The notes beneath the pieces are model-generated. The model saw only the letters and a list, made by a program, of their open reading frames with translations, had not been told where the DNA came from and did not search any database. DNA of 63,426 bases, from IMG/VR virus record IMGVR_UViG_3300027396_000028, positions 1-63,426 of that record; one strand, written 5' to 3'. The translations under genes were made by a program, and so were the position numbers. The DNA is from a virus. This document shows, piece by piece, positions 10,100 to 60,961 of the stretch (positions within the stretch are counted from its first letter, which is position 1; each line of letters starts with the position of its first letter).

Positions 10100-10103
10100 G
10101 AAA

Positions 10104-10110
10104 TATTTAT
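10104..10110 (-). promoter_or_regulatory. Late-type promoter box, leaderless arrangement
   Basis: Minus-strand ATAAATA followed by 4 nt (TTTC) and the ATG of the 9437-10099 gene. Resembles the T4 late box TATAAATA. No ribosome binding site lies between. Confidence 0.65.
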
Positions 10111-10127
10111 GTGCTACTTTAATGATG

Positions 10128-10133
10128 TAAATA
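10128..10133 (+). promoter_or_regulatory. Late-type promoter box, leaderless arrangement
   Basis: TAAATA, 5-nt spacer (GTTTC), then ATG 10139. Divergent to the box at 10104, so the two operons share a roughly 40-bp control region. The spacing decides in favour of ATG 10139 over in-frame ATGs at 10034 and 10109. Confidence 0.65.
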
Positions 10134-10138
10134 GTTTC

Positions 10139-25628: not shown

Positions 25629-27116
25629 ATGAAAGGTCTTATTTTTAATATTTTGGGTTCACCGACCCGAACGCTAGGCGCATATCGTATAGCTCATTGT
25701 CTCAGAGAAGAAGGTTGGGACATCGAAGTTATCGACTTCTGCGAAGTTTGGGAGTTAGATGAATTACAAGAGTTAGCAAAATCCCGGATCGACAAAGACA
25801 CTGTCTTTCTAGGATTTAGTTTTCTTTTCAGCAACATGTCTGAAAGATTTGAAAACTATATCAAATGGTTGAAAGTTACTTTCCCAGATGTATTGTTGAT
25901 TTCAGGAGGACAAGTAGCTGCTCAGTTTGATACTAGTTCTTTTGATTTACATATAAAAGGTTTCGGTGAACTAGCACTGTTAGAATTCCTTAGATGGTAC
26001 AAAGGCAACGGACCTAGACCGAGATTTGATTTGTTATCAAAAGGGTGTAAGCTCATAGATGCTAACAAACAGTATCCGGCATATCCAATGAAGAGTCTCA
26101 TGGTCAAGTATGAAGATAGAGATTTCATAGACTCAAACGAATGGTTGACTATAGAGTTTGCTCGAGGTTGTAAATTTAAATGTGACTTCTGTAACTTTCC
26201 AATCTTAGGAGTCAAGGGCGACTATAGCAGAGATGCCGAAGACGCTAGGATACAATTACAAGACAGCTATGATAGATTCGGAGTATCCAACTATCTCGTA
26301 TCAGATGAAACATTTAATGACCGAACTGAAAAGATCAGCAAGTTCGCTGATGTTGTAGAACAGCTTTCATTCCGACCTTGGTTCTCAGGATTCGTCAGGG
26401 CAGATTTATTGATATCTCGTCCTAGAGATAGAGAAGAACTGCTTAGGATGAATTTCCTAGGACAGTATTATGGTATAGAAAGTTTCAACAGAGATGCTGC
26501 CAGGATAGTTGGCAAAGGAATGGATCCTGAAAAGATCAAACAAGGGTTGATAGATATAAAAAATTATTATCATTCAAATGGTACAAAATTGTATCGAGGA
26601 TCTATTAGTTTGATCATAGGGTTAGCAAAAGAAAATAGAGAAAGCCTAGACAATACTATTAGATGGTTGACAGAGAATTGGAGTGGCGAATCATTCAGTC
26701 CGTTTGTATTAGAAGTGCCTATAGGTTCGTTCGATACAAAATCTTCGATAAGTTCAAACTATCAATCATATGGTTATAGATTGATGAAAGATTCTGATGT
26801 AAAACGCAGCGCAAACTTGAATGTCGGGTATGTTAGGAGAGAAACAGCTCTTAGTGAAGACTGTCTAAAATGGGAGCATGACGATCTTAACATAGTAGAA
26901 GCTACCCAGATACAGGATGAATGGTTAGAAGTTAGAGATAATCCTAACAATAAATTCACTGTAAACTGTTTTAGTTTAAGCGATGTCGGTAGACACTTAC
27001 CTATATCTGAAAAATTAAAACTGCCTCAAAAGGCAATCGACATGAGTACAGATTGGAATCATCCAGATTTCAAAGAACTGATGGCGAATTATAAGTTCAA
27101 AAAATTATCTTTGTGA
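25629..27116 (+). CDS. Radical SAM protein with N-terminal B12-binding-like domain
   Basis: A 495-residue protein. The first ~130 residues have the Rossmann strand pattern of cobalamin-binding BchE-type enzymes (ILGSPTRTLGAYRIA, TVFLGFSFLFSNMS, LLISGGQVAAQ), but no clear DxHxxG cobalamin loop, so B12 use is doubtful. The radical SAM core has Cys181-x3-Cys185-x2-Cys188 (RGCKFKCDFC) and YYGIESFNRDAARIVGKG. Single gene behind an exact late box, between two tRNA blocks. Substrate unknown. Confidence 0.8.
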   Translation: MKGLIFNILGSPTRTLGAYRIAHCLREEGWDIEVIDFCEVWELDELQELAKSRIDKDTVFLGFSFLFSNMSERFENYIKWLKVTFPDVLLISGGQVAAQFDTSSFDLHIKGFGELALLEFLRWYKGNGPRPRFDLLSKGCKLIDANKQYPAYPMKSLMVKYEDRDFIDSNEWLTIEFARGCKFKCDFCNFPILGVKGDYSRDAEDARIQLQDSYDRFGVSNYLVSDETFNDRTEKISKFADVVEQLSFRPWFSGFVRADLLISRPRDREELLRMNFLGQYYGIESFNRDAARIVGKGMDPEKIKQGLIDIKNYYHSNGTKLYRGSISLIIGLAKENRESLDNTIRWLTENWSGESFSPFVLEVPIGSFDTKSSISSNYQSYGYRLMKDSDVKRSANLNVGYVRRETALSEDCLKWEHDDLNIVEATQIQDEWLEVRDNPNNKFTVNCFSLSDVGRHLPISEKLKLPQKAIDMSTDWNHPDFKELMANYKFKKLSL

Positions 27117-35972: not shown

Positions 35973-36532
35973 AACCGTGGATACAGAACGTAAGCCTTAG
36001 CGATGTCCGTAAGGGATTCCACATCGACGCTGGTATCAATTCTATGTTGATCCAGATCGTAGATCCCGGTATGGAGTTTCCTACACCTTCTTATCAATTC
36101 CGCGAGGTCCATCAATTTGAATTCTTGGATGTCGAAGAAAAAGATGAGGTCTTGGAAGAAGCCATGCGATGCTCGCATGAGCAGGCAGCTGAACTAGTAC
36201 GACTGCTAGAACATGCGATGGAACAGCATATGAATGTAGTTGTCCATTGTGTAGCCGGAGTCTGTCGTTCGGGTGCTGTCTGTGAAATCGGTGTCATGAT
36301 GGGCTTCCGAGACACAGAAGCTTTCCGTAGCCCTAATCTTCTAGTCAAGCATCGCATGATGAAACAGTTAGGTTGGACCTACGACGAGAATGAACCTCAT
36401 ACCATCAATGGTTATACTACTGATGCGGGGATCGTTCTTCCTAAGACCATAGACTGGGATACTGATAACGAAAAGGTCTTTACACTAGCGGCAGAACGTC
36501 GTGAGCGTAGACAGCGTGAAGGCGATATTTAA
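35969..36532 (+). CDS. Protein tyrosine/dual-specificity phosphatase-like protein
   Basis: A 187-residue protein. NVVVHCVAGVCRSGAVCEIG contains the phosphatase P-loop HCxxGxxR with Cys94 and Arg100. The family dephosphorylates phosphotyrosine or other phosphoesters through a Cys intermediate. The C-terminal tail is acidic then Arg-rich (AAERRERRQREGDI). Possible role in reprogramming host signalling or RNA 5' ends; substrate unknown. Confidence 0.8.
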   Translation: MKPWIQNVSLSDVRKGFHIDAGINSMLIQIVDPGMEFPTPSYQFREVHQFEFLDVEEKDEVLEEAMRCSHEQAAELVRLLEHAMEQHMNVVVHCVAGVCRSGAVCEIGVMMGFRDTEAFRSPNLLVKHRMMKQLGWTYDENEPHTINGYTTDAGIVLPKTIDWDTDNEKVFTLAAERRERRQREGDI

Positions 36533-36571
36533 ACTGTGGCTTTTTTACAACAGCCCTGTAACCTATTTTGG

Positions 36572-36600
36572 TTGACAGGGTTTCTTTTTGGTGCTACAAT
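36572..36600 (+). promoter_or_regulatory. Sigma70-type promoter
   Basis: TTGACA, 17-nt spacer, TACAAT with extended TGC. Precedes ATG 36636. Confidence 0.83.
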
Positions 36601-36635
36601 AGACAAAGAATGAAAGTAAAAGAAAGAGGGCGAGT

Positions 36636-37070
36636 ATGTCAGTATTCAAAGATTTGATCGGAAAAAGAATCAACGGAGTGTTCGTTGGTAACGAAAACTG
36701 GAGCCTTGTGTTCCGTACGACCGATGGTAAGTTCTATCGTTACGACACTAGAAATGATTGCTGTAACAGTGTGTGGGTAAATCATATCACTGGTGTCGAC
36801 TGTGTGGGTAAAGGCGACTCCTTTGACATCATCAAAGGTGCTCTTGTTATCGACACCGAAGACAAAGGATGGGGTGAGAACCGAAGCGACGACGAAGACG
36901 GTTACGAAGTCATCCAAGATGGCTTCTGGACTATCAAGACCGACCGAGGTTATATCGATATCGAAGTTCGTAACAGCCACAATGGTTACTACGGCGGCGA
37001 CATCGAGTTCCAAGAAAACGAAGGTGTTTCAGATATCGACAACTTCAAACAAGTATTAGAAGATTTTTAA
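36636..37070 (+). CDS. Phage DUF7448-like protein
   Basis: A 144-residue protein: LIGKRINGVFV, LVFRTTDGKFYRYDTRNDCCNSVWVNHI and GYYGGDIEFQENE. The 'DGxxYR...DCC.SV.V..I' pattern occurs in many phages; function unknown. First gene of the unit containing the metallophosphoesterase and P-loop kinase, so the three may act together. Confidence 0.7.
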   Translation: MSVFKDLIGKRINGVFVGNENWSLVFRTTDGKFYRYDTRNDCCNSVWVNHITGVDCVGKGDSFDIIKGALVIDTEDKGWGENRSDDEDGYEVIQDGFWTIKTDRGYIDIEVRNSHNGYYGGDIEFQENEGVSDIDNFKQVLEDF

Positions 37071-37084
37071 GAAAGGAGGGCACA

Positions 37085-37690
37085 ATGCCTAGTGTATTTT
37101 TAGTTAGCGATACGCACTTTGGTCACGCAGGTGTGTGCCGCTTCACACGTAACGACGGTGTTACAAAGTTGCGTCCATGGACTGATCCAGACGAAATGGA
37201 TGAAGCTATGGTCAAGGCTTGGAACGAACGTGTCAAGCCCACGGACAAGGTCTATCATTTAGGCGACGTGGTTATAAACCGCAAGGCAATGAAGACATTG
37301 GCTCGGTTGAACGGTGACAAGGTCTTGATCCGTGGTAACCACGATATCTTCCGTGACGACGAGTACAGACAGTACTTCCGTGAGTTACGAGCATATCATG
37401 TTATGAACGGGATGATCTTAAGCCATATTCCTGTACACAGTGACAGCTTGGGACGTTTTGGTGTTAACATTCACGGACACTTACACGCAAACCGCGTTAA
37501 GAAAGCTCGTGGCGTTGATGCTCGCACAGGAGAAATCTTGTACAGCGAGGAAAACGATGTTCGTTATCATTGCGTCTGCGTAGAACAGACTCCGGACTTT
37601 GCGCCTATATTGTTTGAAGATGTTATCAAGAACATCGAAGCAGAAGGTGGAAGTGTTGGATTTCGAAACGGCAACGGTCCGGAGATGTAA
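37085..37690 (+). CDS. Calcineurin-like metallophosphoesterase
   Basis: A 201-residue protein with the full motif set: SDTHFGH near residue 8, YHLGDVV, IRGNHD and IHGHLHANR. Two metals are expected. Family members cleave phosphomonoesters or diesters, including nucleic acid and nucleotide substrates. AAGGAGG precedes the ATG; the stop overlaps the next ATG (TAATG). Confidence 0.9.
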   Translation: MPSVFLVSDTHFGHAGVCRFTRNDGVTKLRPWTDPDEMDEAMVKAWNERVKPTDKVYHLGDVVINRKAMKTLARLNGDKVLIRGNHDIFRDDEYRQYFRELRAYHVMNGMILSHIPVHSDSLGRFGVNIHGHLHANRVKKARGVDARTGEILYSEENDVRYHCVCVEQTPDFAPILFEDVIKNIEAEGGSVGFRNGNGPEM

Positions 37691-38154
37691 TGCCAAAATG
37701 TTATCAACTTATCGGAGTCCCAGGTAGTGGAAAATCTACCTGGGTTTCCAATCAAGAGTGGGCCAAAGATTGTAGTATTGTATCCACCGATGCATGGGTA
37801 GAAGATTACGCAAAACGAATGGGAAAAACTTATTCAGAAGTTTTTACTGAATACATGCCTGTAGCAGTAAAGCTAATGGCTGATCATGTTGTCAAATGCC
37901 GTCAAGATGGTATAGATATTATTTGGGATCAGACTAGTACTACTGTCAAAAGTCGTGCCCGAAAATTCAATATGTTGCCAGAATATGAGCATATTGCTGT
38001 AGTATTCCGTACACCCGAGCATACAGAACTCATGCGTCGGCTGATGAGTCGACCTGGTAAAGAAATTCCCGAACACGTTATTACTAGCATGATCGACGGA
38101 TGGGAAGATCCAACTGAGGAAGAAGGATTTAAAGAAATTTGGTACGCTCAATAA
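37690..38154 (+). CDS. P-loop kinase (polynucleotide-kinase-like domain)
   Basis: A 154-residue protein. LIGVPGSGKSTWV is Walker A, SIVSTDAWVEDYAK follows with the Asp seen in T4 PNK-type kinases, DIIWDQTSTTVKSRAR is the Walker B-like strand and adjacent Arg, and MRRLMSRPG lies in the lid. With the phosphatase-type enzyme upstream it resembles a split 5'-kinase/phosphatase pair for RNA or DNA end repair, but the substrate is unproven. An intrinsic terminator follows. Confidence 0.82.
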   Translation: MPKCYQLIGVPGSGKSTWVSNQEWAKDCSIVSTDAWVEDYAKRMGKTYSEVFTEYMPVAVKLMADHVVKCRQDGIDIIWDQTSTTVKSRARKFNMLPEYEHIAVVFRTPEHTELMRRLMSRPGKEIPEHVITSMIDGWEDPTEEEGFKEIWYAQ

Positions 38155-38179
38155 AAGGACCCTAGGGTCCTTTTTTTTT
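38155..38179 (+). terminator. Rho-independent terminator
   Basis: AGGACC-CTAG-GGTCCT stem-loop followed by about nine T. Closes the 36636-38154 unit. Confidence 0.88.
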
Positions 38180-38199
38180 GACTTTTTTTTGGAAATCAA

Positions 38200-38215
38200 T
38201 AAATACGCATATAAT
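38200..38215 (+). promoter_or_regulatory. Mixed late/sigma70-like promoter
   Basis: TAAATA at 38200-38205 and TATAAT at 38210-38215, with TTGACT at 38178. The -35/-10 spacing is not ideal for either. Ahead of GGAG and ATG 38230. Confidence 0.4.
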
Positions 38216-38229
38216 CCTGGAGAAATAAA

Positions 38230-38781
38230 ATGCTGCTTGGCCTTGATGACCTCAGGTTTAATCAAGAATGGTTAGACCTTTTGAAAAATGATCCCGTACA
38301 TCCCGATATACCTATACATGATCGTTTGATCGATGGTCGAACTGTGTTTGCTTTCGCACCAGAAGGCACTCCGGTAGCTATGGTCTGTGCCAAACTATCA
38401 GATCATATTAACAAATCAATGACTGATATCCTTAGCCCTAGCCAACAGAAAATGGTAGCTATGTTCTATACCGTATTCCGTTTGCCTGGAGCAGCAGGCA
38501 GTGTCGGAGCCGATATCATCAATCAGGCTATCGCATACTGTAAATCTCAAGGTGTAGAACAACTTTACACTCTAAGCCCAATCCCTAGCCTCAGGAAAAA
38601 TTTCGTCGAAATGCCCACAGAAGAAGAAATTAGAGAATACATACAAGCTCGTAAAGATCCTGTAGCTCGTTTCCATTTGGGCAATGGTGCTCGTTTAGCT
38701 GGTGTTAATTTCGCAGCCGATTCTAGTCCAAAACGTTTGGAAGAAAGCTGGGGGATTATGGTGAACTACGATTATTCTTAG
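38230..38781 (+). CDS. Malonyl-CoA decarboxylase-like GNAT-fold protein
   Basis: A 183-residue protein matching the catalytic C-terminal part of malonyl-CoA decarboxylase: LYTLSPIPSLRKNF with Ser116, then RKDPVARFHLGNGARLAG with His149, and SWGIMVNYDY at the end. Full enzymes have about 400-490 residues and convert malonyl-CoA to acetyl-CoA. Here only the GNAT-fold domain is kept. It could change acyl-CoA pools or have become another acyl-CoA enzyme. Confidence 0.78.
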   Translation: MLLGLDDLRFNQEWLDLLKNDPVHPDIPIHDRLIDGRTVFAFAPEGTPVAMVCAKLSDHINKSMTDILSPSQQKMVAMFYTVFRLPGAAGSVGADIINQAIAYCKSQGVEQLYTLSPIPSLRKNFVEMPTEEEIREYIQARKDPVARFHLGNGARLAGVNFAADSSPKRLEESWGIMVNYDYS

Positions 38782-38802
38782 CTCGTTTTAAATTTTGGCG
38801 TG

Positions 38803-38831
38803 TGCTATACTAAATCATACCTCAGATAAAT
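38803..38831 (+). promoter_or_regulatory. Extended -10 promoter plus late-type box
   Basis: TGC-TATACT (38803-38811) without a clear -35, then GATAAATA ending at 38831, upstream of ATG 38866. Confidence 0.45.
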
Positions 38832-38865
38832 AACTTTGGACGGAGCGTCCTTGATTGGTGGATTT

Positions 38866-39510
38866 ATGCGCAAACGTATAGCTCTTTTTCTCAGCCACCC
38901 AAAATGTTCGATTCAATGCGGCAACGGCATGATCAGGGCCCTAAGCCCACATTACGATTTCAAAATTTTCAGCAAACACAGTCTAGAAGATGACTTCTTC
39001 GACGATGTCGATATAATCGCCATGCCCGGAGGCATAGGTGATTCCGACAGCTTCTTCAAACTTTTCAAAGAAAACGGTGAACGAGTCAAAGAATTTATAG
39101 ACAACGGCGGATATTATTTGGGCATATGTATGGGCGCCTATTGGGCTGGCAGCAGATATTTTGATATACTAGAAGATGTAGATGCTGAACAATATATCAC
39201 ACGCCCAAACACAGACACAAGAAGGCCTCACCCAAAAAATATGCCCGTAGTTTGGAACGGTCAAAAAACCAATATGTATTTCTACGATGGCTGCGCACTA
39301 GTAGGCAATAGAAATAAATTCCAAACCATAGCCACATACAGCAACGGTGATCCTATGGCTATCATACAAAATCGTATAGGAGTCATCGGGTGTCACCCTG
39401 AAAGCGAACCACACTGGTTTGAATTACAGAGCTGGATGAAAGGCAAATATCATAACGGTGTTCATCACCAATTACTGCTTGATTTTGTTGACAGGCTAAC
39501 TAACAGATAG
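38866..39510 (+). CDS. Glutamine-amidotransferase-like protein (BPL_N type)
   Basis: A 214-residue class I GATase fold. IIAMPGGIGDSDSFF and YYLGICMGAYWAGS with Cys88 form the nucleophile elbow, and VIGCHPESEPHW carries the His-x-Glu pair. The pattern fits the N-terminal domain family of biotin-protein ligases, whose role is unclear. ATG 38866 chosen; ATG 38836 lacks a site. Substrate unknown. Confidence 0.75.
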   Translation: MRKRIALFLSHPKCSIQCGNGMIRALSPHYDFKIFSKHSLEDDFFDDVDIIAMPGGIGDSDSFFKLFKENGERVKEFIDNGGYYLGICMGAYWAGSRYFDILEDVDAEQYITRPNTDTRRPHPKNMPVVWNGQKTNMYFYDGCALVGNRNKFQTIATYSNGDPMAIIQNRIGVIGCHPESEPHWFELQSWMKGKYHNGVHHQLLLDFVDRLTNR

Positions 39511-39544
39511 TACACTAGTCTAATAAAGTTACAAAGGTTTTATT

Positions 39545-39769
39545 ATGGACATGAATTCACTGGCTGTTTGGTTAGCCGGTTGCGTACTGTTTTCGTTAGG
39601 CGTAGTTGTTATCATGGCGGCTGTTATCGTCATTAATAATTTGATCCACAGATTTTGGAAACCAGTTACATTTTTCTATACACAACACGGATTATTTCCT
39701 ACAGTAAGATTTGTTACACAAGAAGAACTGATACAAATAGAACAGGAAAAGGAAAAGAAAAATGTCTAA
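39545..39769 (+). CDS. Small membrane protein (74 aa)
   Basis: A long hydrophobic helix at residues 5-34 (LAVWLAGCVLFSLGVVVIMA and beyond), followed by a charged C-terminus ending EKEKKN. Predicted inner-membrane single-pass protein. AAAGG lies before the ATG. Function unknown; a holin-like role cannot be excluded. Confidence 0.55.
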   Translation: MDMNSLAVWLAGCVLFSLGVVVIMAAVIVINNLIHRFWKPVTFFYTQHGLFPTVRFVTQEELIQIEQEKEKKNV

Positions 39770-39983
39770 CCTAATATGGAATTCAACACTAGACAGCATA
39801 TATGATTGTGAAGTTACCAGGATCGACGAACGTACTGGTCTGCTCAAGGTAACTAATAGTGAGTCCAAGTCTGTACTTTTAGAAAAAACCGTAGGTCTCA
39901 GTTACGGTTCAATATTTGGTCCAGATGTAGAAGATGTCGCGATTTGGCAAGAACTAGCCGTCAAAGCCGTAGACAGCCAATAA
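39762..39983 (+). CDS. Small protein (73 aa)
   Basis: Overlaps the membrane-protein gene by 8 nt with AAAGGAAAAG upstream. Beta-rich, with no recognised motif (IYDCEVTRIDERTGLLKVTN). A 9-bp inverted repeat, CGTTATTGA/TCAATAACG, follows the stop. Confidence 0.55.
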   Translation: MSNLIWNSTLDSIYDCEVTRIDERTGLLKVTNSESKSVLLEKTVGLSYGSIFGPDVEDVAIWQELAVKAVDSQ

Positions 39984-39984
39984 T

Positions 39985-40008
39985 ACGTTATTGATTTTTT
40001 CAATAACG
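39985..40008 (+). terminator. Inverted repeat, possible terminator
   Basis: CGTTATTGA, T-rich loop, TCAATAACG directly after a stop codon. No T tract follows, so termination would be weak or Rho-assisted. Confidence 0.4.
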
Positions 40009-40037
40009 CTCATAGAAATATTTTTAGAAAAAACCTA

Positions 40038-40067
40038 TTGATTTAGGTTTTTAATAGACTATATAAT
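40038..40067 (+). promoter_or_regulatory. Sigma70-type promoter
   Basis: TTGATT, 18-nt spacer, TATAAT, ahead of the AhpC-type gene (AAGGAG, ATG 40120). Confidence 0.65.
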
Positions 40068-40119
40068 AACTGTATAGAGCAAAAGTTCTATCAGGTTTTA
40101 ACACACACAAGGAGAAAAT

Positions 40120-40659
40120 ATGAAAACCGTTGGTAATAAACTAGACCCATTTGTGATCACTGGCGTCAAGCCTGGTCAACCCGAAGATGCTTTCTTCGAT
40201 ATCACACACGAATCATTTCCAGGCAAGTGGAAAGTAATCGTGTATTACCCAAAGGACTTTACATTCGTATGTCCTACTGAAATCGTAGCCTACGACAAAT
40301 TGTCTAAAGATTTCGAAGACCGTGATGCTGTATTGCTAACTGGTTCAACAGACAATGAGTTCTGTAAGGTAGCTTGGCAGAACGCACACGAAGATCTCAA
40401 GAAGATTACTCACACACAGTTTGCTGATACACAGCGTGGCGAAAACAGTTTGATCGAACAGCTTGGTGTATTTTATGCTCCAGCAGGTGCCGCACTTCGT
40501 GCCACTTTCATTGTTGATCCAAACAATGAGATCCAACACGTTACTGTTAACAACTTGAACGTTGGTCGTAGCCCAGAGGAAACTCTACGTATCCTCGACG
40601 CTCTCCAAACTGGCGAGTTGTGCGCATGTAATCGTAAGGTTGGTGGCGAAACTCTTTAA
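40120..40659 (+). CDS. ahpC: Peroxiredoxin, AhpC type
   Basis: A 179-residue 2-Cys peroxiredoxin. DFTFVCPTE holds the peroxidatic Cys51, and GELCACNRKVGGETL at the C-terminus the resolving Cys168/170 in the C-x-C form of actinobacterial AhpC, which works with AhpD. It reduces hydrogen peroxide and organic or lipid peroxides in the cytoplasm. An AhpD-like gene lies two genes downstream, supporting a functional pair. Starts an operon behind its own promoter. Confidence 0.92.
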   Translation: MKTVGNKLDPFVITGVKPGQPEDAFFDITHESFPGKWKVIVYYPKDFTFVCPTEIVAYDKLSKDFEDRDAVLLTGSTDNEFCKVAWQNAHEDLKKITHTQFADTQRGENSLIEQLGVFYAPAGAALRATFIVDPNNEIQHVTVNNLNVGRSPEETLRILDALQTGELCACNRKVGGETL

Positions 40660-40669
40660 TAGGTGAACC

Positions 40670-41077
40670 ATGCTTGAGTGTTTGATATTAGGTGACAGCA
40701 TAGCAGTAGGTACTATCCAGGCTAGACCTGGTTGTGTTGAAATGGCCAAAGGTGGCATCAACAGTTGGCAATGGAACAAACAATTCAGCGATCGTCCGGC
40801 ACTGGACGGAATGGAATATAAGTTTGTTGTGATCAGTCTAGGTTCGAACGATCACAAAGGTGTCAACACAGAAAAGGAAATACTTGCTATCAGAGAAAAG
40901 GTAATCGCTAAACACGTTTACTGGATCCTTCCTGCTATCAAACCAGATGTACAAGCGATCGTACAAAAGGTTGCGGGTAGGTATGGCGATACTGTCCTAC
41001 CGATCCGCACTCTTTCTAAAGACGGCGTACATCCTACAGGCAAAGGTTACAAAGAAATAGCAGAGACACTAAAATGA
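40670..41077 (+). CDS. SGNH/GDSL hydrolase-like protein
   Basis: A 135-residue small SGNH fold with all four blocks: LGDSIAVGT (Ser), KGGINSWQW (Gly), SLGSNDHKG (Asn) and DGVHPTGKGYKEIA (Asp-x2-His). Likely an esterase or lipase acting on small esters or cell-wall acyl groups. Located between AhpC and AhpD in one operon, which hints at handling peroxidised lipids, but that is a guess. Confidence 0.82.
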   Translation: MLECLILGDSIAVGTIQARPGCVEMAKGGINSWQWNKQFSDRPALDGMEYKFVVISLGSNDHKGVNTEKEILAIREKVIAKHVYWILPAIKPDVQAIVQKVAGRYGDTVLPIRTLSKDGVHPTGKGYKEIAETLK

Positions 41078-41589
41078 CAACATGGGTAGATCAAATCAAA
41101 GAGGCATTGCCAGATTATGCCAAAGACACTAGACTTAATCTGGACGCGGTTATTAATCGCAGCACATTGGATCCAATCGAGGCAAACGGTTGCGCACTCG
41201 CCGCAGCCATGGCTACCGGCAATGGAAAGCTGGTTACATTCATTCAGTCTGGGATTGAAGACACTGTTGAGCGCGATGCTGCGTTGACTGCTGCCGCTAT
41301 CATGGCACAGAATAACGTATGGTATCCATATGTTGAAATGGCTGATGATGCAAACCTCAAAGGTTTGCCAGCACAGCTACGCATGAATGCTATTGCCAGC
41401 CACGGCGGTACTACCAAGGCTCGTTTTGAATCATATAGCCTTGCTGCCAGTATCGTAGGCAAATGTCATTTCTGCGTCAAGGCGCACTATGAAACACTCA
41501 AGAAGGAAGGCTACACAGTAGAACAACTTCGAGACATAGGACGCATTGCCGCAGTAATTACATCAGTGGCAAGAGTATTAAATTCATGA
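41074..41589 (+). CDS. ahpD: AhpD-like alkylhydroperoxidase
   Basis: A 171-residue carboxymuconolactone-decarboxylase-fold protein. GKCHFCVKAHYETLKKEGYT gives Cys131-x2-Cys134 and His138, the AhpD redox site, in a helical background. AhpD recycles oxidised AhpC using lipoylated dehydrogenase components, and has weak peroxidase activity. Co-operonic with an AhpC carrying the matching C-x-C tail. Confidence 0.88.
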   Translation: MTTWVDQIKEALPDYAKDTRLNLDAVINRSTLDPIEANGCALAAAMATGNGKLVTFIQSGIEDTVERDAALTAAAIMAQNNVWYPYVEMADDANLKGLPAQLRMNAIASHGGTTKARFESYSLAASIVGKCHFCVKAHYETLKKEGYTVEQLRDIGRIAAVITSVARVLNS

Positions 41590-41780
41590 ATGTAAAACGT
41601 ATCAGAGTCTATAAAAGCACAGGGAGAAGTCCGGACTATATAAGTGTAGGAAAAAGTTGGCCTACATATGGTCCGGGCCAGACCCCGCCTAAAGAATCTC
41701 GCACAGACGAAGACTTTCGCCTGGAGCAAGAACGAATCGCTAGAGCAATTGAACAGGCTAAGAGCGGTTTGGTAAGATAA
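41586..41780 (+). CDS. Small basic protein (64 aa)
   Basis: Starts in an ATGA overlap with ahpD. Basic N-terminus (VKRIRVYKSTGRSPDY), Gly/Pro-rich middle and a charged helix at the end (DFRLEQERIARAIEQAKSG). No motif recognised. The stop codon overlaps a GATAAATA box. Confidence 0.52.
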   Translation: MNVKRIRVYKSTGRSPDYISVGKSWPTYGPGQTPPKESRTDEDFRLEQERIARAIEQAKSGLVR

Positions 41781-41813
41781 ATAGTTGGACTAGATTTACA
41801 GTCACACTATAAT
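41777..41813 (+). promoter_or_regulatory. Dual promoter: late-type box plus sigma70-type
   Basis: GATAAATA (41776-41783) followed by TTGGAC, 17-nt spacer, TATAAT (41785-41813). Ahead of the outer-membrane protein gene, which could thus be read early and late. Confidence 0.62.
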
Positions 41814-41820
41814 ACATTAC

Positions 41821-41880
41821 TCCATAGCAATACTGCTATGCGTGTCAATATTCTATAGTCAAGGACTATAGCAACTAGAG
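41821..41880 (+). promoter_or_regulatory. Hairpin leader of the outer-membrane protein gene
   Basis: Two perfect hairpins: CATAGCA-ATAC-TGCTATG and CTATAGTC-AAG-GACTATAG, followed by AGAGGAAGT and ATG 41889. Probably stabilise the mRNA or control translation. Confidence 0.5.
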
Positions 41881-41888
41881 GAAGTAAA

Positions 41889-42566
41889 ATGAAGAAAACT
41901 TTACTACTGTCTGCGGTAGCAGTTATCGCACTGGCGTCTGCCGGTATCGCTGCTGATCTACCAAAGAAGAAGAAGACTGAGCCTGCTGCGGCTGCTCCAG
42001 TCGTATCAGCAGTGCCTACTGAAAAACCAGTACAAGTAGCCAGTGCTGATACCACTATCGCTCTTGGATTCGGAATGGAATCTAATGACGGTGTTTACGA
42101 CACCGCTAACAAGTATGCCTATAAGGTAGCTGTTGAGCGTAACATCGGCGGTGGTGCGTTTGTTGGTGGTAATTTCCAAACCAGCCAAACACAACCAAAC
42201 AATGGTGCTATCAAGCAGAACATCGAAGTCATCGGCGGCTACAAGCTGCCAATGGGTCCTGTATCTGTCAAGGGAAGTTTAGGTGTCGGTGAACGTTATA
42301 CCGATGGCAATAACTTTTCTTACTATGTTGCTCGTGCTGGCGCAGACTATAAGCTGACCGACTCGATCACATTGAACGCTGCTCAATATCGTTATCGTAA
42401 TGCGTTCGACACTACCAACAACTATCAGAGCCACCAAATCGGCACTGGTATGACTTTCAACTACACGCAGAATCAGGCCATCTATGCCAATGTCTACCGT
42501 AACCTAGACAGCGGTTTCAATGTCACTGACAATGGTGTAGAAATGGGACTTAAGGTTTCTTTCTAA
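41889..42566 (+). CDS. Outer-membrane beta-barrel protein
   Basis: A 225-residue protein with a clear Sec signal peptide (KKTLLLSAVAVIALASAGIA, cleavage near AADLP) and a Pro/Ala-rich linker, then about eight amphipathic strands ending in F (MGLKVSF), the BAM recognition signal. The AADLP start after the signal is common in alphaproteobacterial porins. In a phage it may mask receptors, exclude superinfection or alter permeability. Probably host-derived. Confidence 0.82.
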   Translation: MKKTLLLSAVAVIALASAGIAADLPKKKKTEPAAAAPVVSAVPTEKPVQVASADTTIALGFGMESNDGVYDTANKYAYKVAVERNIGGGAFVGGNFQTSQTQPNNGAIKQNIEVIGGYKLPMGPVSVKGSLGVGERYTDGNNFSYYVARAGADYKLTDSITLNAAQYRYRNAFDTTNNYQSHQIGTGMTFNYTQNQAIYANVYRNLDSGFNVTDNGVEMGLKVSF

Positions 42567-42572
42567 TTAACT

Positions 42573-42600
42573 GAAATAGCGGCGAGAGTCGCTATTTCCT
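42573..42600 (+). terminator. Probable Rho-independent terminator
   Basis: GAAATAGCG, 8-nt loop, CGCTATTTC, a perfect 9-bp stem followed by a short T-rich stretch. Confidence 0.65.
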
Positions 42601-42700
42601 TTATATCATTTTCATGATTTTCACTATGTTTTTGAAGTTGGTTTTCCTGTAATATTACGATACATACTGTACACAAGTATGTTTCATAAAGGAGAATATT

Positions 42701-42772
42701 ATGTGGACCAAACCAGAAGCAGTTGAAATGCGATATGGTTTCGAAATCACTATGTACGTGATGAATCGATAA
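42701..42772 (+). CDS. pqqA: PqqA-like PQQ precursor peptide
   Basis: A 23-codon gene with AAGGAG 6 nt upstream and its own terminator. The peptide begins MWTKPEAVEMRYGFEITMY and continues for four residues. It has the PqqA hallmarks: W near the start, P5, and G-x-E-x-T-x-Y with Glu15 and Tyr19 at the E-x3-Y spacing that PqqE cross-links to build pyrroloquinoline quinone. Length equals that of bacterial PqqA. No PqqB-E genes are visible, so it would feed host enzymes. Function is inferred from motif identity. Confidence 0.85.
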   Translation: MWTKPEAVEMRYGFEITMYVMNR

Positions 42773-42780
42773 CCAAAAAA

Positions 42781-42808
42781 GGCCCTAAGCGATTAGGGCT
42801 TTTTTTTG
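42781..42808 (+). terminator. Rho-independent terminator after pqqA
   Basis: GGCCCTAA-GCGA-TTAGGGCT with GNRA loop, followed by eight T; an A run precedes it, so it may work in both directions. Confidence 0.9.
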
Positions 42809-42820
42809 ACTAAAATACCG

Positions 42821-42849
42821 TTGTACTTTAAATACTTTCCTGCTATACT
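42821..42849 (+). promoter_or_regulatory. Sigma70-type promoter for the tRNA-like gene
   Basis: TTGTAC, 17-nt spacer, TATACT with extended TGC, 7 nt before the tRNA-like gene. Confidence 0.62.
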
Positions 42850-42855
42850 AAATTT

Positions 42856-42966
42856 GTGGCCGTGAGTGGAATATGGCAGACCTCCAATCCGTTGTGAAAC
42901 GCATTCGGGAAAGGGACACAGGCATAGCCGCCGTCTTTGTAGGTTCGAATCCTACCGGCCACACCA
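42856..42966 (+). tRNA. tRNA-like gene without recognisable anticodon arm (111 nt)
   Basis: Perfect 7-bp acceptor GTGGCCG/CGGCCAC, discriminator A, encoded CCA and a canonical T-arm GTAGG-TTCGAAT-CCTAC. The 5' part (TGAGTGGAATATGGCAGACC) resembles a Leu-type D-arm. I find no 5-bp stem with 7-nt loop in the ~55 nt between, though GGC-ATA-GCC and CGTT-GTGA-AACG hairpins exist. It may be a tRNA with an insertion or a tRNA mimic. Confidence 0.6.
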
Positions 42967-43007
42967 ATTACTACTATAAGTAGATACACATAACTTAAGG
43001 AAAAATT

Positions 43008-43199
43008 ATGTCAACAGTAAATCAAATCACAGAAGCAGTAACAGCATGGAAAGCAGAAGATGACAAGTTCACCGCAGGCAATGGTGCCGCAGGTACTCGT
43101 GCTCGCAAGGCACTAGCAGAACTTAGCAAGTTGATCAAGGCACGCCGTAACGAAATCACGGCAGAAAAGAACGCCCGCAAAGAAGCTAAGGCAAAGTAA
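43008..43199 (+). CDS. Histone H1/Hc1-like small basic protein
   Basis: A 63-residue protein: GNGAAGTRARKALAELSKLI then KARRNEITAEKNARKEAKAK. The G-x-x-A-A-G-T-R-A-R-K-A-L pattern with a Lys-rich tail is that of bacterial Hc1-type histone-like proteins, which bind DNA. AAGGAA precedes the ATG. Might compact or shield phage DNA. Confidence 0.72.
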   Translation: MSTVNQITEAVTAWKAEDDKFTAGNGAAGTRARKALAELSKLIKARRNEITAEKNARKEAKAK

Positions 43200-43209
43200 A
43201 CAAGACGAC

Positions 43210-43626
43210 ATGAGCACATGTTACCCAAATACTATCACAGTCGGTAGTGGTGCTACCGGTAGCACTACCTACACTACTGCTGGTGCTACTGTCGGAGGTA
43301 TTACTACTATACCGATTGGAAATGTTACTATAGGTAGTGGTAATAGCCCTTACACGTATAGTAGCGGAACAACATGGACTACTTCTCCTATCTATACCAC
43401 TGGCAGTAATGGTAGTTCAATAAAGGTAACAGGCGATGCCGAGTTTGATGGCGATGTAAAAATCAAAGGTCATAGTCTGATGAAACTTTTAGAAAAGATG
43501 GAAGACCGTCTAGCTATTTTAATGGATCCTGATCCAGAGAAATTAGAAAAATTCGCAGCATTAAAAAAGGCTTACGAGAATTACAAATTGCTAGAAAAAC
43601 TTTGCCAAGAAGAAAAAGATAAGTGA
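43210..43626 (+). CDS. Probable virion-associated protein
   Basis: A 138-residue protein. The first 65 residues are Gly/Ser/Thr repeats (VGSGATGSTTYTTAGATVGG) as in fibre-type proteins, then IKVTGDAEFDGDVKIKGHSL, as in virion proteins of marine T4-like phages, and a helical end with LKKAYENYKLLEKLC. The same AYE-type end occurs in the 44179 and 57369 proteins. Precise role unknown. Confidence 0.65.
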   Translation: MSTCYPNTITVGSGATGSTTYTTAGATVGGITTIPIGNVTIGSGNSPYTYSSGTTWTTSPIYTTGSNGSSIKVTGDAEFDGDVKIKGHSLMKLLEKMEDRLAILMDPDPEKLEKFAALKKAYENYKLLEKLCQEEKDK

Positions 43627-44192
43627 TGTTATTAAGAGTCTATGATGATCTGATACCTCAACACTTACAGGATTATCTAGAGATGATCTGTTTAGGTAAG
43701 TCAGGTGATCAGCTCATACATCCCGCAGTAGATTTTAGATGTAAGTACGAAACCACAGCAAAGGAAGATGAACGATCTTATGCTCCGCTGAGTTTCGTAC
43801 ACATCCTTAAATCGAGCACAGCGACTTCTACTCACATGGATAACTTCGGTCTAGTGCCCATGGCAGTTTGCCAAGAAAATAATCTTATCATAAACAGTAT
43901 ACCTGTAGCAAGAGTTTTTATAACATTGCCATACGATACAGAATTAGATCATTATGCTCCGCATGTAGATTATCCTGGTGAGCATACTGTGGTAATTTAC
44001 TACGTCAACGACGCAGATGGCGATACTGTGTTCTTTGATCAATCAGGTAAAAACATCATCAAACGTGTCAGCCCAAAGAAAGGAAGAGTCGTGATCTTCG
44101 ATGGCCGTATACTACACGGAGGTGGTATACCTAAGAAAGGCCCTCGTTGTATCGTAAACTACGATCTACACACTTCAAATGGAAAAAGATAA
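43626..44192 (+). CDS. 2OG-Fe(II) oxygenase (prolyl-hydroxylase-like)
   Basis: A 188-residue protein from ATG 43626 (GTG 43623 overlaps the previous stop). HYAPHVDYPGEHTVVIYYVN supplies H-x-D, GDTVFFDQSG the following strand, GRVVIFDGRILHGGGIP the distal His, and PRCIVNYDL the 2-oxoglutarate Arg. Frequent beside structural genes in marine T4-like phages; protein or small-molecule substrate unknown. Confidence 0.83.
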   Translation: MLLRVYDDLIPQHLQDYLEMICLGKSGDQLIHPAVDFRCKYETTAKEDERSYAPLSFVHILKSSTATSTHMDNFGLVPMAVCQENNLIINSIPVARVFITLPYDTELDHYAPHVDYPGEHTVVIYYVNDADGDTVFFDQSGKNIIKRVSPKKGRVVIFDGRILHGGGIPKKGPRCIVNYDLHTSNGKR

Positions 44193-44559
44193 ACTGAGAA
44201 AATTCTGCGAACATTACGAAGTTCAAATCTTGAACGATCAGAATCGCACACAGAGATATAGGCGTCCTAATTTTTTCGCATATCCGCTCGATGCCGATGT
44301 TATCGATATCGCTTCGGAATTTTATGAAGAAAGATTGTACACAGTACAGATTCCCGAAAGCCGTTTAAAGACTCTAGTAGAAATGGAAGAAATGTTTTTC
44401 CGTGCTAGAGAACACGGACAGGGCAAAGACATGTTCGATATGCTGATGGAAAAAGAACGTGAAGAAAGAAATTTTAGGAATACAAACGAAGCTGTCAAAA
44501 AAGCCTACGAACAGTATTCCATGCTATTGAATCTAGCAGGATATCAAAGAAAGATATGA
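44179..44559 (+). CDS. Conserved phage protein with AYE-type C-terminus
   Basis: A 126-residue protein: PLDADVIDIASEFYEERLY, VQIPESRLKTLVEMEEMFF, then a Glu/Arg-rich helix and AVKKAYEQYSMLLNLAGY at the end. The C-terminal helix matches those of the 43210 and 57369 proteins. It sits between two oxygenase genes with overlaps on both sides. Function unknown. Confidence 0.65.
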   Translation: MEKDKLRKFCEHYEVQILNDQNRTQRYRRPNFFAYPLDADVIDIASEFYEERLYTVQIPESRLKTLVEMEEMFFRAREHGQGKDMFDMLMEKEREERNFRNTNEAVKKAYEQYSMLLNLAGYQRKI

Positions 44560-45131
44560 CTCCACAGGCTCTTTTCCCAACAGTAGTAGCTACATCTGAT
44601 TTTAGCAAAGATTTAGATATTCCTGTGCTTTTAAAAATTATAGAAAGACAAAAAACTAACCCACATAGTCTAGTCGACGAATCACCTAGTAGTTATGGTA
44701 CATATATCAATGTGTTAGATGACATCAAACTAGAAGGTTTGAAAAAAAGAATACAGGTAGAAGTCGACAACTATACCGAACTGCTGGGACTTAGAAAAGT
44801 AAAGATAACTGGATCGTGGTTTAATATTCTAGGACAGGGAGGTAGAGTCAATGCTCACAGACATGAGTTGAGTGTGATATCAGGTGCCTTTTATGTCAAG
44901 GCAGATCCTGGTAGTGTTGGATTAAGATTACACAGTCCGCTGGCTCCTATGCGTATGTATGAATTCGCAGAAAAGGTGAATGACATCAACAGCAATTTTT
45001 GGGTGATGCCCTGTTACACTGGACAACTGGTTTTATTTCCTAGTTGGTTAGAACATAGCACACTTCCAAACCAAACTGAATCTAGAATAACGGTCAGTTT
45101 TAACACCAAATATATCAAAGAAATAGGTTGA
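44556..45131 (+). CDS. 2OG-Fe(II) oxygenase (TIGR02466-like)
   Basis: A 191-residue protein. VNAHRHELSVISGAFYVKAD gives the first His region, and LVLFPSWLEHSTLPNQTESRITVSFN the distal His and Arg, exactly the TIGR02466 layout. Paralogous to the 30940 protein. The stop overlaps the next promoter. Substrate unknown. Confidence 0.85.
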   Translation: MTPQALFPTVVATSDFSKDLDIPVLLKIIERQKTNPHSLVDESPSSYGTYINVLDDIKLEGLKKRIQVEVDNYTELLGLRKVKITGSWFNILGQGGRVNAHRHELSVISGAFYVKADPGSVGLRLHSPLAPMRMYEFAEKVNDINSNFWVMPCYTGQLVLFPSWLEHSTLPNQTESRITVSFNTKYIKEIG

Positions 45132-45156
45132 CAGTATAAGTAATTTGCTCTATAAT
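45128..45156 (+). promoter_or_regulatory. Sigma70-type promoter
   Basis: TTGACA, 17-nt spacer, TATAAT, ahead of AAAGGA and ATG 45181. Overlaps the preceding stop codon. Confidence 0.85.
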
Positions 45157-45180
45157 CTAAATTAGATAAAGGACTCAAAG

Positions 45181-45996
45181 ATGCGTAACTATTGGACCTG
45201 TTCAAAATTTGCTGATTGGCTTCGTGGTACTATGAAGCCATCTGCCGAAACTTCTAAAGGTTGGGCTACTTGGAAAAAGGAAGCCAAAGCCAAGCATCCT
45301 GTCCGCTATTGGATTGCCGAAGAAGGTCTCGATTACATCCAAGATGTTTGGATGTTTGTTCCTGATAGGATTAATGATGTCCGCTATTATATCAACAACC
45401 GTTGGATTACTCGTACTCATTGCCTCACTGCTCATGGTCGTGATATCAAACCTGGTAGTTGGTGTGATGTGGGTAATCGCTTTTTGCCATGTCTCTTTAA
45501 TGAACTTGTTGACTTCGTCGAAATCGAACTAGCATGGTCTAATTGTCTTTGGAGCGATGAAGCACGTAAAAAGTATAGCTATCCTTGGTGGCGTCGATGG
45601 TATCGCAACTGGCGCTGTGAAGAAGCTGCCATGGAGTATCTCAATTGGGCCAAAACATTAACCAACGCAGAGTTTTTGGACGAAGATAAGAAGCATGAAG
45701 CTGTTCCTACAGCACAAGCAGAAGCCGCAAAGGAAATCGAAATCCTTTATAAATGGTGGAAGTACGAACGTCCACAACGTCCAGATCCATATGATGTCAG
45801 CGGTTGGTCAGCTATCTGCGAACGTCGTCGTGTAAAGTATCCCGACGAAATTTTTCCAGAAGATGAGAACAAAAAGGAAAAAGCTGAATCTCGCAAAGCA
45901 CTTGACGTATTACACAAATTAGAACGCAAATACGAACAAGAAGATGAAGCGATGATGATCCGTTTAATTAAAATCCGTCAAAGCCTATGGACTTAA
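45181..45996 (+). CDS. Conserved Trp-rich phage protein (271 aa)
   Basis: Very Trp-rich, especially residues 135-200 (YSYPWWRRWYRNWRCEEAAM, ILYKWWKYERPQRPDPYD). The N-terminus WTCSKFADWLRG and the TCSxFADxLRG style are known from other large phages, without function. The C-terminus is charged and helical. First gene of an early operon running to about 48114. Confidence 0.65.
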   Translation: MRNYWTCSKFADWLRGTMKPSAETSKGWATWKKEAKAKHPVRYWIAEEGLDYIQDVWMFVPDRINDVRYYINNRWITRTHCLTAHGRDIKPGSWCDVGNRFLPCLFNELVDFVEIELAWSNCLWSDEARKKYSYPWWRRWYRNWRCEEAAMEYLNWAKTLTNAEFLDEDKKHEAVPTAQAEAAKEIEILYKWWKYERPQRPDPYDVSGWSAICERRRVKYPDEIFPEDENKKEKAESRKALDVLHKLERKYEQEDEAMMIRLIKIRQSLWT

Positions 45997-46178
45997 CTGA
46001 AAAGAAAAAACCTTCATTCTTCAGACTTTGGGTACATCAATTTTATATGGCCAATTGCGAAGAACATGACGTGTTCAACGAACCAAAATTAACTATGAGC
46101 CAATATTGGCAAATGTATAAATGGTTCGTTAGAAGTAAATTCAGAGACCAACAACTAAAGGTTAGAAACAATGGATGA
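45987..46178 (+). CDS. Small aromatic-rich protein (63 aa)
   Basis: Overlaps the previous gene by 10 nt. FFRLWVHQFYMANCEEHD and SQYWQMYKWFVRSKFRDQ; no known motif. In operon with 45181. Function unknown. Confidence 0.55.
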   Translation: MDLTEKKKPSFFRLWVHQFYMANCEEHDVFNEPKLTMSQYWQMYKWFVRSKFRDQQLKVRNNG

Positions 46179-46389
46179 TAAATTAGAAAATGTCTATGTT
46201 GAATATTTGAAATTCACAGACAAAATGGCTGGAGAATATTCTGCCATGGCTATCGCAGGTGTCATGATGGCACAGGCTTTGAGCATCTATAAGACTGCGT
46301 TAAAACCAGACGAGTTTGACAGCATGGTAGAAAACATCGTAAACTGTAAAGACAAAGTGAAAACATTCGCAGGACCTATTTTACAATGA
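46171..46389 (+). CDS. Small helical phage protein (72 aa)
   Basis: Overlaps the previous gene by 8 nt. All-helical pattern (YSAMAIAGVMMAQALSIYKT, EFDSMVENIVNCKDKVKTF), conserved among marine phages to my recollection. Function unknown. Confidence 0.6.
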   Translation: MDDKLENVYVEYLKFTDKMAGEYSAMAIAGVMMAQALSIYKTALKPDEFDSMVENIVNCKDKVKTFAGPILQ

Positions 46390-46637
46390 CCGAAGAAAAG
46401 AAAATGAAAGTGGAATTTGCTCCCGGTGCTTTTGATGGATTCGAAGGCACACAAGAAGAACTTGACGAGTTGATCGCAGAAGTCAAAGCCATGTTCGAAG
46501 GCAAGACTCGTGAAGAAATCGAATCTATGGGTCGTCCAATGGATGATGACCTCTTTGATGACATGAGCGAAGAAGAACAGATTCGCCTTATGAGGTCGTT
46601 AGGATTTGATGATCTACCACCGAGGAATCTACAATGA
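46386..46637 (+). CDS. Small acidic protein (83 aa)
   Basis: Starts in an ATGA overlap. Strongly acidic (GTQEELDELIAEVKAMFEG, DDDLFDDMSEEEQIRLMRSL). Could be a nucleic-acid mimic or inhibitor, but no family is recognised. Confidence 0.58.
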   Translation: MTEEKKMKVEFAPGAFDGFEGTQEELDELIAEVKAMFEGKTREEIESMGRPMDDDLFDDMSEEEQIRLMRSLGFDDLPPRNLQ

Positions 46638-59556: not shown

Positions 59557-60114
59557 ATGAAGGACATAAAGACCTATATCAATTTAATAGAAGTAGCAGA
59601 CAAACAGCTCAGGCAAGAGCCACTGCCTTATAAAAGAACCGAGCTAGATCCTGTTTTGAGTGAAAAAACTCTGGATTATCATTATGGTAAGCTAGCTAAA
59701 GCCTACGTAGAACGTTACAATAAAGGTGAAGGTGATTCAGATTTTAATAAAGGCGGAGCAGTACTACATAACATTTATTTTTCACAGCTAAAGCCGCCCG
59801 GTGGTGCTAATCGCCCATTCGGTGCTAGTGAAGAACTTATAGAAAGAAAATACAAATCGTTCGACAGTTTTAAAGAAGAATTTTTAAAAACTGCTATGAC
59901 TATACAGGGCAGCGGTTGGGTGTTTATGGACAGACAAGGTGAAATAAAGACTATAAAAAATCATAATATCACCGGTGATCCTACTAGGATAGCACTGTTA
60001 GTAGATTGGTGGGAACACGCTTGGGCATTAGATTACCAAGCAGACAAAGACAAATATATGAATAACTTTTGGCGCATAATAGATTGGGCCATAGTAAATG
60101 ATAGATTACAATAA
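59557..60114 (+). CDS. Fe/Mn superoxide dismutase
   Basis: A 185-residue SOD. LDYHYGKLAKAYV holds His42, GGAVLHNIYFSQL His71, and VDWWEHAWALDY Asp150 and His154, the four metal ligands. It converts superoxide to oxygen and peroxide, which the phage AhpC/AhpD could remove. QGSGWVFMD replaces the usual GSGW-x-WL. Iron or manganese preference is not readable. First gene before the Fe-S genes. Confidence 0.92.
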   Translation: MKDIKTYINLIEVADKQLRQEPLPYKRTELDPVLSEKTLDYHYGKLAKAYVERYNKGEGDSDFNKGGAVLHNIYFSQLKPPGGANRPFGASEELIERKYKSFDSFKEEFLKTAMTIQGSGWVFMDRQGEIKTIKNHNITGDPTRIALLVDWWEHAWALDYQADKDKYMNNFWRIIDWAIVNDRLQ

Positions 60115-60130
60115 CTAAAGGAGACCAAAC

Positions 60131-60247
60131 ATGTTAGAAACAGTATTTTGGATTTTAGTAGGTGCATTCGTGGGCTGGCATATTCCACAGCCATCTTGGG
60201 CTAAGGCTTTGGAAGATAAAGTCAAAGGTTTTTTTATTAAGGACTAA
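60131..60247 (+). CDS. Very small membrane protein (38 aa)
   Basis: AAGGAG precedes ATG 60131. ETVFWILVGAFVGWHIPQPS is a single hydrophobic helix and EDKVKGFFIKD the charged end. It fills the space between SOD and iscU. Function unknown. Confidence 0.52.
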   Translation: MLETVFWILVGAFVGWHIPQPSWAKALEDKVKGFFIKD

Positions 60248-60249
60248 TC

Positions 60250-60669
60250 GTGGCATATAGCAACCAGGTTATTGATCATTATGAAAACCCCCGCAATGTG
60301 GGTAGTCTTGATAAGTCTGATCCTACCGTTGGTACTGGTATGGTTGGGGCACCTGCTTGCGGCGATGTGATGAAACTTCAAATAAAGGTAGATGAAAATG
60401 GAATCATCGAAGACGCAAAGTTTAAAACCTACGGGTGCGGTTCGGCGATTGCGAGTAGCTCGCTCGTTACCGAATGGCTTAAAGGTAAGACGCTCGACCA
60501 AGCGGGTACGATTAAAAATTCGGCTATCGCAGCAGAACTCGCTTTGCCCCCCGTCAAGATCCACTGCTCTATCCTCGCAGAAGATGCTATTAAATCAGCC
60601 ATTGAAGATTATCGTAGAAAGCAAAGAGAAACTGAATTAAATGATAACACTGTCGGAACTAGCAGCTGA
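60250..60669 (+). CDS. iscU: Fe-S cluster scaffold IscU
   Basis: A 139-residue IscU with all cluster ligands: [13 protein letters not shown] (Cys37, Asp39), [11 protein letters not shown] (Cys63) and [16 protein letters not shown] (Cys106), including the LPPVK motif recognised by HscA. IscU assembles [2Fe-2S] clusters from IscS sulfur. GTG start at 60250. The codons (CCC, CTC, TCG, GCG, ACG) stand out against the neighbours, suggesting recent acquisition from a bacterium. Overlaps iscA by 29 nt. Confidence 0.95.
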
Positions 60670-60961
60670 AAAAGTAAAGACACAGTTAGAACGCAGAGGC
60701 AAAGGATTGGGCATAAGAGTAGGAGTAAAAAACTCCGGATGTTCAGGTCTTGCTTATGTTTTAGAATATGTCGACACTCCAAACGAGCATGATGACGTTT
60801 GGCAAAGCAATGGTGTTAACATTTACACAGATAAGAAATCTCTAGTGTACCTGCTAGGTTTAGAAATGGATTGGATCAAAAACGGACTTAACGAAGGGTT
60901 TGATTTTAAAAACCCCAACGAAACTGCTCGCTGCGGGTGTGGGGAAAGTTTCAAAGTATAG
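60641..60961 (+). CDS. A-type Fe-S carrier protein (IscA/ErpA-like)
   Basis: A 106-residue protein. [17 protein letters not shown] holds the first Cys, and [11 protein letters not shown] the C-x-C pair at the end, the three ligands of A-type carriers. It passes clusters to apo-enzymes. Encoded in one unit with iscU, so the phage has a minimal scaffold-carrier pair to serve its many Fe-S radical SAM enzymes (inference). Confidence 0.93.

Follow-up and report, generated by a model that had tools for sequence, protein, structure and literature searches.

Methanol dehydrogenase uses PQQ as its cofactor, and PqqA, the peptide precursor of PQQ, is consumed once per cofactor molecule. This distinguishes it from cyanophage psbA, with which the phage renews only the component of the host energy system that is exhausted first, but which encodes a protein that turns over. 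In Methylorubrum, PqqA comprises 29 residues, of which Glu16 and Tyr20 are joined by PqqE (PMC10906245). According to PMC4109929, Methylophilaceae tend to carry several pqqA together with a single copy of the other pqq genes, and a PQQ-producing strain with five pqqA copies, two of them expressed far above the rest, has been described (PMC9851590). The nearest viral precedent was published in 2020 from Lake Baikal, where the representative of the viral population VP_266 was described as encoding PqqA and methanol dehydrogenase was assigned to two populations (PMC7678222). Phage pqqA is thus already known as a gene type, and the possibility of a first report, left open by the original prediction, falls away. 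Its spread in phages, its unannotated state and the stem-loop described below were not found in the literature searched on phages and PQQ. A search for PQQ terms returned no mention of phage pqqA in four papers on OM43 phages (PMC9004378, PMC8024684, PMC8163748, and PMC10580990) and no PQQ term in a paper that recovered methylophages (PMC13037479). A PqqA-annotated peptide family described as co-expressed with bacterial defence systems (PMC11118758) is a different matter.

The stretch of viral DNA analysed here (63,426 bases; hereafter the window) contains pqqA on the plus strand at 42701-42772, consisting of 23 codons plus a stop and encoding MWTKPEAVEMRYGFEITMYVMNR. The peptide scored above the cut-off of two curated family models, PF08042 (Pfam PqqA; 35.6 bits, cut-off 21.1, E 8.8e-9 for a single protein) and TIGR02107 (NCBIfam, equivalog model; 34.6 bits, cut-off 20, E 1.2e-8 for a single protein), and judged by these scores the match is far beyond chance. 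It has W2, P5, and G13-F-E15-I-T17-M-Y19, with E15 and Y19 in the E-x3-Y spacing, and the short length (23 residues) typical of PqqA. The open reading frame, its length, its frame and the invariant residues were therefore all as originally claimed, and the sequence confirms the ORF as a phage-borne PqqA. A profile search of the whole viral record returned exactly one PqqA, and no PHROG family was found for the peptide. As a host-like metabolic gene within a viral genome, it has the character of an auxiliary metabolic gene. A Shine-Dalgarno sequence, AAGGAG, was read at 42689-42694 (plus strand), 6 nt before the ATG, and a terminator-like stem-loop with a U-run follows the gene at 42775-42806 (plus strand; fold -17.2 kcal/mol, z -4.1); the pattern scan placed the latter stem-loop on the minus strand only.

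In common with PqqA of the Methylophilaceae (PF08042/TIGR02107), the peptide has its length, the Trp and Pro near the start and the G-x-E-x-T-x-Y core, and those bacteria likewise have stand-alone copies outside the pqq operon. The window copy differs in being virus-borne and without pqqE; it reads PEAVEMRYGFEITMYVMNR, whereas PAATEMRFGFEVTMYVMNK is the most frequent version in the host loci fetched by pattern. The usual pqqB-E neighbourhood, which is not a defining feature, is absent around the window gene. When Acinetobacter PqqB, PqqC, PqqD and the adjoining radical SAM protein were used as tblastn queries (E up to 1e-5), none of 240 viral loci was matched (160 obtained with pqqA patterns and 80 with ahpD), and the window was also unmatched, in agreement with the prediction that it holds no other pqq gene. 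The same four queries matched 23, 21, 19, and 16 of 130 host loci, respectively, each of which was 8 kb or less. The PqqE cut-off was exceeded in none of 50 records with viral pqqA, selected mainly for length among the 120 listed, and in none of 14 ahpD-linked viral pqqA records. Weak matches of the PqqE profile to radical SAM proteins, far under the cut-off, occurred in 3 of the 50 and 1 of the 14 records, as well as in all 14 control genomes. The missing pqqB-E genes do not exclude membership in the PqqA family, because stand-alone pqqA is normal in Methylophilaceae.

On the host side, a set of 150 genomes from the Methylophilaceae, the family of strain LSUCC0665, included 149 with PqqA, with a median of 4 copies and two or more copies in 141 genomes. 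PqqE was above the cut-off in 140 of the 150, with two copies in 5; the other 10 genomes, whose completeness is not given, had no PqqE above the cut-off. Since these bacteria have several pqqA and usually one pqqE, it appears to be only the consumable whose dose they raise, a dose to which phages would add.

A first PqqA query matched 12 of 50,697 phage records by tblastn, and Acinetobacter PqqA as a second query returned the same 12. Two of these are contigs named Acinetobacter phage MD-2021a; setting them aside leaves 10 phage records. Nine of the 10 named phages infect Methylophilales or Methylophilaceae, namely the Methylophilales phages MEP401, MEP402, MEP301, Venkman and four Melnitz variants, and the Methylophilaceae phage P19250A. 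The tenth is the spring-water phage MW202481, for which no host is recorded. All 10 records lack a pqqA annotation for the gene, which bears out the expectation that it is easily missed; in one Melnitz variant and in MW202481, an ORF on the opposite strand is annotated in its place. MEP431-434, which are Methylophilales phages in the NCBI taxonomy, were not among the matches, and since the collection may not hold them, no claim is made that all Methylophilales phages have pqqA. The pattern scan of IMG/VR found at least 120 viral contigs with pqqA, and among the matches listed the ORF was 23-25 aa long in 120 of 120. The locus L063 carries a peptide of a different type, together with PhoH-like, ssDNA-binding, baseplate and tail-tube proteins; the differing types of viral PqqA suggest several acquisitions.

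That the viral contigs are mislabelled host DNA was weighed against these records. One contig named Acinetobacter phage MD-2021a (CAKLQF020000010.1; L008) speaks for it, since this pqqA-bearing contig looks chromosomal: its pqqA is directly followed by pqqB, pqqC, pqqD and a radical SAM gene, and the contig also has a polyphosphate kinase. However, the carriers include phage isolates with complete genomes, for which mislabelling is excluded, the 240 viral loci lacked pqqB-E by tblastn, and the loci L063, L022, and L028 also carry genes for phage structure or replication. As an account of the viral contigs, mislabelling is accordingly hardly credible. L022 also encodes a phage ssDNA-binding protein, and its pqqA is separated by about 10 bases from the preceding gene for a 414-aa protein with a CxxCH haem motif (300-1544); this protein had no Pfam, PDB or PHROG match, and it could be a partner of a PQQ enzyme.

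Conservation of the two cross-linked residues had been named beforehand as one point on which the prediction could fail. Glu15 and Tyr19 were both kept in 120 of the 120 viral contigs among the matches listed, and the search pattern had left codons 15 and 19 free. The uncorrected pN/pS was 0.20 over 13 sequences (the window, the ahpD-linked loci, L015 and L046) and 0.21 over 160 distinct viral pqqA sequences; at the viral codons outside the fixed positions of the pattern it was 0.26 and 0.28, and these figures are fairer because selection by pattern favours conservation. The corresponding uncorrected value across 115 distinct host pqqA sequences was 0.12. As estimated from these ratios, viral pqqA is under purifying selection. 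The idea that the gene is a neutral passenger, recently acquired from a host and unused, draws on the many near-identical pqqA copies scattered in the hosts and on 4 pqqA nucleotide sequences that are identical between viral and host loci. Against this stand the purifying selection and the retention of Glu and Tyr noted above, the ribosome site and terminator-like stem that the gene has for itself in the window, and its presence in different phage families, the Zobellviridae and Kyanoviridae. A passenger role is therefore improbable.

Among the 50 viral pqqA records, chosen as above, a PQQ-dependent alcohol dehydrogenase accompanied pqqA in only 1, and this counts against a role in PQQ supply; none was found in 33 ahpD records, 14 with pqqA and 19 without. 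The single positive is a 72-kb viral record (L061/L300) that carries pqqA and a 624-aa methanol dehydrogenase (L300, 700-2574), which is closest to solved XoxF enzymes (6oc5). In the phage collection, the L300 dehydrogenase matched only two Acinetobacter contigs, at 25% identity. VP_266, as described in PMC7678222, resembles the present case in its phage-borne pqqA, in the prediction of a methylotroph virus and in the role proposed, but it comprised one gene in one population, whose representative also had methanol dehydrogenase. In contrast, the pqqA found here is widespread, unannotated in named records and mostly without a dehydrogenase.

A segment of 10,513 bases (L302) identical to window positions 36074-46586 comes from a viral contig of 169,155 bases. 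This relative has one PqqA by profile search and no PQQ alcohol dehydrogenase, and its best PqqE profile score was 25.2 bits, compared with a cut-off of 381. No DNA-level match to the segment was found in the phage collection. The window itself contains seven radical-SAM-like ORFs, at 6369-16900 and 25629-27116, two of which are above the cut-off for twitch-domain radical SAM proteins. No PqqE model was listed for any of the seven, although for one ORF only the best 25 of 40 families were given. On the scores of the 169-kb relative (25.2 and 17.9 bits vs 381), PqqE was rejected as an identity for the radical SAM proteins of the window.

These ORFs (6.4-27.1 kb) bear on the idea that the peptide does not serve as a substrate but acts on PqqD, PqqE or another radical SAM enzyme as a decoy or regulator, or that viral radical SAM proteins might modify it. 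The authors of PMC7678222 tied the radical SAM proteins of their methylotroph viruses to PQQ synthesis; the profile does not identify the radical SAM proteins in the window's relative as PqqE, with the two scores given above. Both cross-linked residues are also kept, which a decoy would not need. We regard the decoy as unlikely and favour the substrate.

Our main reading, to which we assign a probability of about 0.75, is that viral pqqA is a functional precursor gene, an auxiliary metabolic gene by which the phage feeds only the consumable PQQ precursor to the host pathway. During infection, the 23-residue peptide would be translated from a short phage mRNA and bound by host PqqD, and host PqqE would cross-link Glu15 and Tyr19. 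PQQ would then be completed by a host protease, PqqB and PqqC and could load methanol dehydrogenase or another quinoprotein. Since each PQQ takes up one peptide, it would suffice for the phage to replenish the substrate as long as the host enzymes last, and for the same reason the substrate would be exhausted first once host transcription stops. The consumable-substrate idea fits the observations because pqqA travels without pqqE and because the hosts hold several pqqA but usually one pqqE. The presence of closely similar genes in methylotroph viruses suggests that such viruses keep host methanol metabolism supplied. On this reading, the window virus would infect a PQQ-making methylotroph, and expression of the gene, processing by host enzymes, a rise in PQQ and a benefit to the phage would all follow, as would higher PQQ or dehydrogenase activity during infection. 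The interpretation first put forward, in which the phage raises the supply of the substrate of the host pathway, is overall supported.

Against this reading, a host that already has multiple pqqA copies may have no shortage of PqqA. Overexpression of pqqB alone in Gluconobacter raised PQQ more than that of pqqA, as cited in PMC7936290, and the host of an OM43 phage was cultured with PQQ as a medium supplement (PMC9004378), the one context in which that paper names PQQ. A different benefit can be imagined, in which the phage raises PQQ so that the outer-membrane PQQ receptor is occupied and competing phages are blocked; PQQ is described as blocking a PqqU-dependent phage from infecting E. coli (PMC12124388). 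We consider receptor blocking very unlikely as the function of the gene. To our knowledge, no use of a PQQ receptor has been found in these phages.

Upstream of the window gene, a stem-loop was found at 42662-42682 (plus strand; 7-bp arms ACATACT/AGTATGT and a 7-nt loop; fold -9.1 kcal/mol, z -2.55). A -10-like box, TAATAT, was read at 42650-42655 (plus strand), 6 nt before the stem-loop, with which the mRNA may begin. A promoter before pqqA is only tentative because there is no convincing -35 sequence, and a sigma-70 scan found no plus-strand promoter directly upstream of the gene. The pattern scan placed another terminator-like stem-loop after the upstream gene at 42573-42598 (plus strand); with terminator-like stem-loops on both sides, pqqA may be its own transcription unit. 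The upstream element TGATTTTCAGTATG was not enriched in the window (10 found vs 12.1 expected). Rfam matches across pqqA were all under the gathering score, and only a tRNA match 3' of the gene reached its own.

The upstream stem-loop is a frequent feature of viral pqqA. Of 108 viral genes, 46 had an inverted repeat (arms of at least 6 bp) 5' of the ribosome site, compared with 111 of 1035 other ORFs of at least 80 aa with a ribosome site from the same loci, which were not deduplicated or verified as genes (Fisher p 3.5e-15). The 108 were obtained from 177 by removing upstream sequences 60% or more alike, and the figure before deduplication was 79/177. Dinucleotide shuffles gave a mean of 15.15 and a maximum of 22 stem-loops, compared with 46/107 in the real sequences. 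Among sequences with a -10-like box, the stem-loop occurred in 52 of 111 viral pqqA (not deduplicated) and in 36 of 214 controls. The spacing from the box to the start of the stem was 3-7 nt in 18 of 21 viral pqqA vs 3 of 12 controls, a position about where the predicted transcription start would be expected; 25 of the 46 viral pqqA with a stem-loop had no recognisable -10-like box. For host pqqA, the stem-loop was found in 21 of 91, compared with 34 of 272 controls, and where a box preceded the gene there was no excess (10/63 vs 7/44).

The stem sequences vary among phages (ACATACT/AGTATGT, GTGGAA/TTCCAC, and GTTAGAA/TTCTAAC), which points to a structure rather than one DNA operator, and the classes of stem were not brought into register by automatic alignment. 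The z values of 8 single folds ranged from -3.03 to -0.85, so not every stem-loop is striking alone. A stem at the 5' end slows the decay of some bacterial mRNAs, and by analogy pqqA mRNA may be stabilised by the stem-loop preceding its ribosome site. Because the controls include operon-internal ORFs, the element could also be general to the promoters of these phages.

A wider proposal can be put forward tentatively, at somewhat less than even odds. Stand-alone pqqA would be a hidden and repeatedly acquired hallmark of methylotroph viruses, which would supply the substrate only, often from a short mRNA with a predicted 5' stem-loop; PQQ would thereby remain available, and methanol oxidation would continue, after host transcription has been shut down. 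OM43-type methylotrophs are described as connecting algal methanol to carbon release (PMC9004378), and if carriage of the PQQ precursor is routine among their phages, the step from methanol to carbon release would be a direct target of infection. The system would also offer a clean test case of a phage steering a pathway through its consumable alone, and phage-host pairs are already in culture.

The surroundings of pqqA were compared among viral loci. The window encodes an AhpC-like peroxiredoxin at 40120-40659 (plus strand), followed by an AhpD-like protein at 41074-41589 (plus strand), both upstream of pqqA. Of the 80 best-matching ahpD loci, 14 had pqqA downstream of ahpD on the same strand; one of the 14 is the window's own virus, and three pairs share the peptide and the printed upstream letters. 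The distance from the end of the ahpD match to the start of pqqA was within 330 bases in 10 of the 14 and about 1.1 kb in the window. Without pqqA, ahpD was found in 66 of the best 80 loci, as judged from their flanks, and in 19 of 33 records searched whole; the frequency of such cases makes the link a local tendency and not a rule. Relatives of AhpD were confirmed in at least 597 viral stretches, and the protein is therefore common in viruses. An origin of an ahpC-ahpD-pqqA cassette from the host was rejected, since AhpD matched none of the 130 host loci and AhpC matched 1, at 33% identity. The porin-like neighbour, used as a query without a positive control, matched none of 274 genomes.

The window also encodes proteins related to a head maturation protease and to tail fibres, together with 33 predicted tRNAs. 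Just 3' of pqqA, a tRNA-like sequence of 108 nt lies at 42856-42963 (plus strand; Rfam tRNA 29.7 bits, gathering score 29); it is unusually long and was not called by ARAGORN, and it may represent a degenerate tRNA or one that carries an insertion. At 43008-43199 and 59557-60961, the window encodes a histone H1-like Hc1 protein, an iron/manganese superoxide dismutase and proteins resembling NifU/IscU and IscA, and the virus thus combines several redox and iron-sulphur genes.
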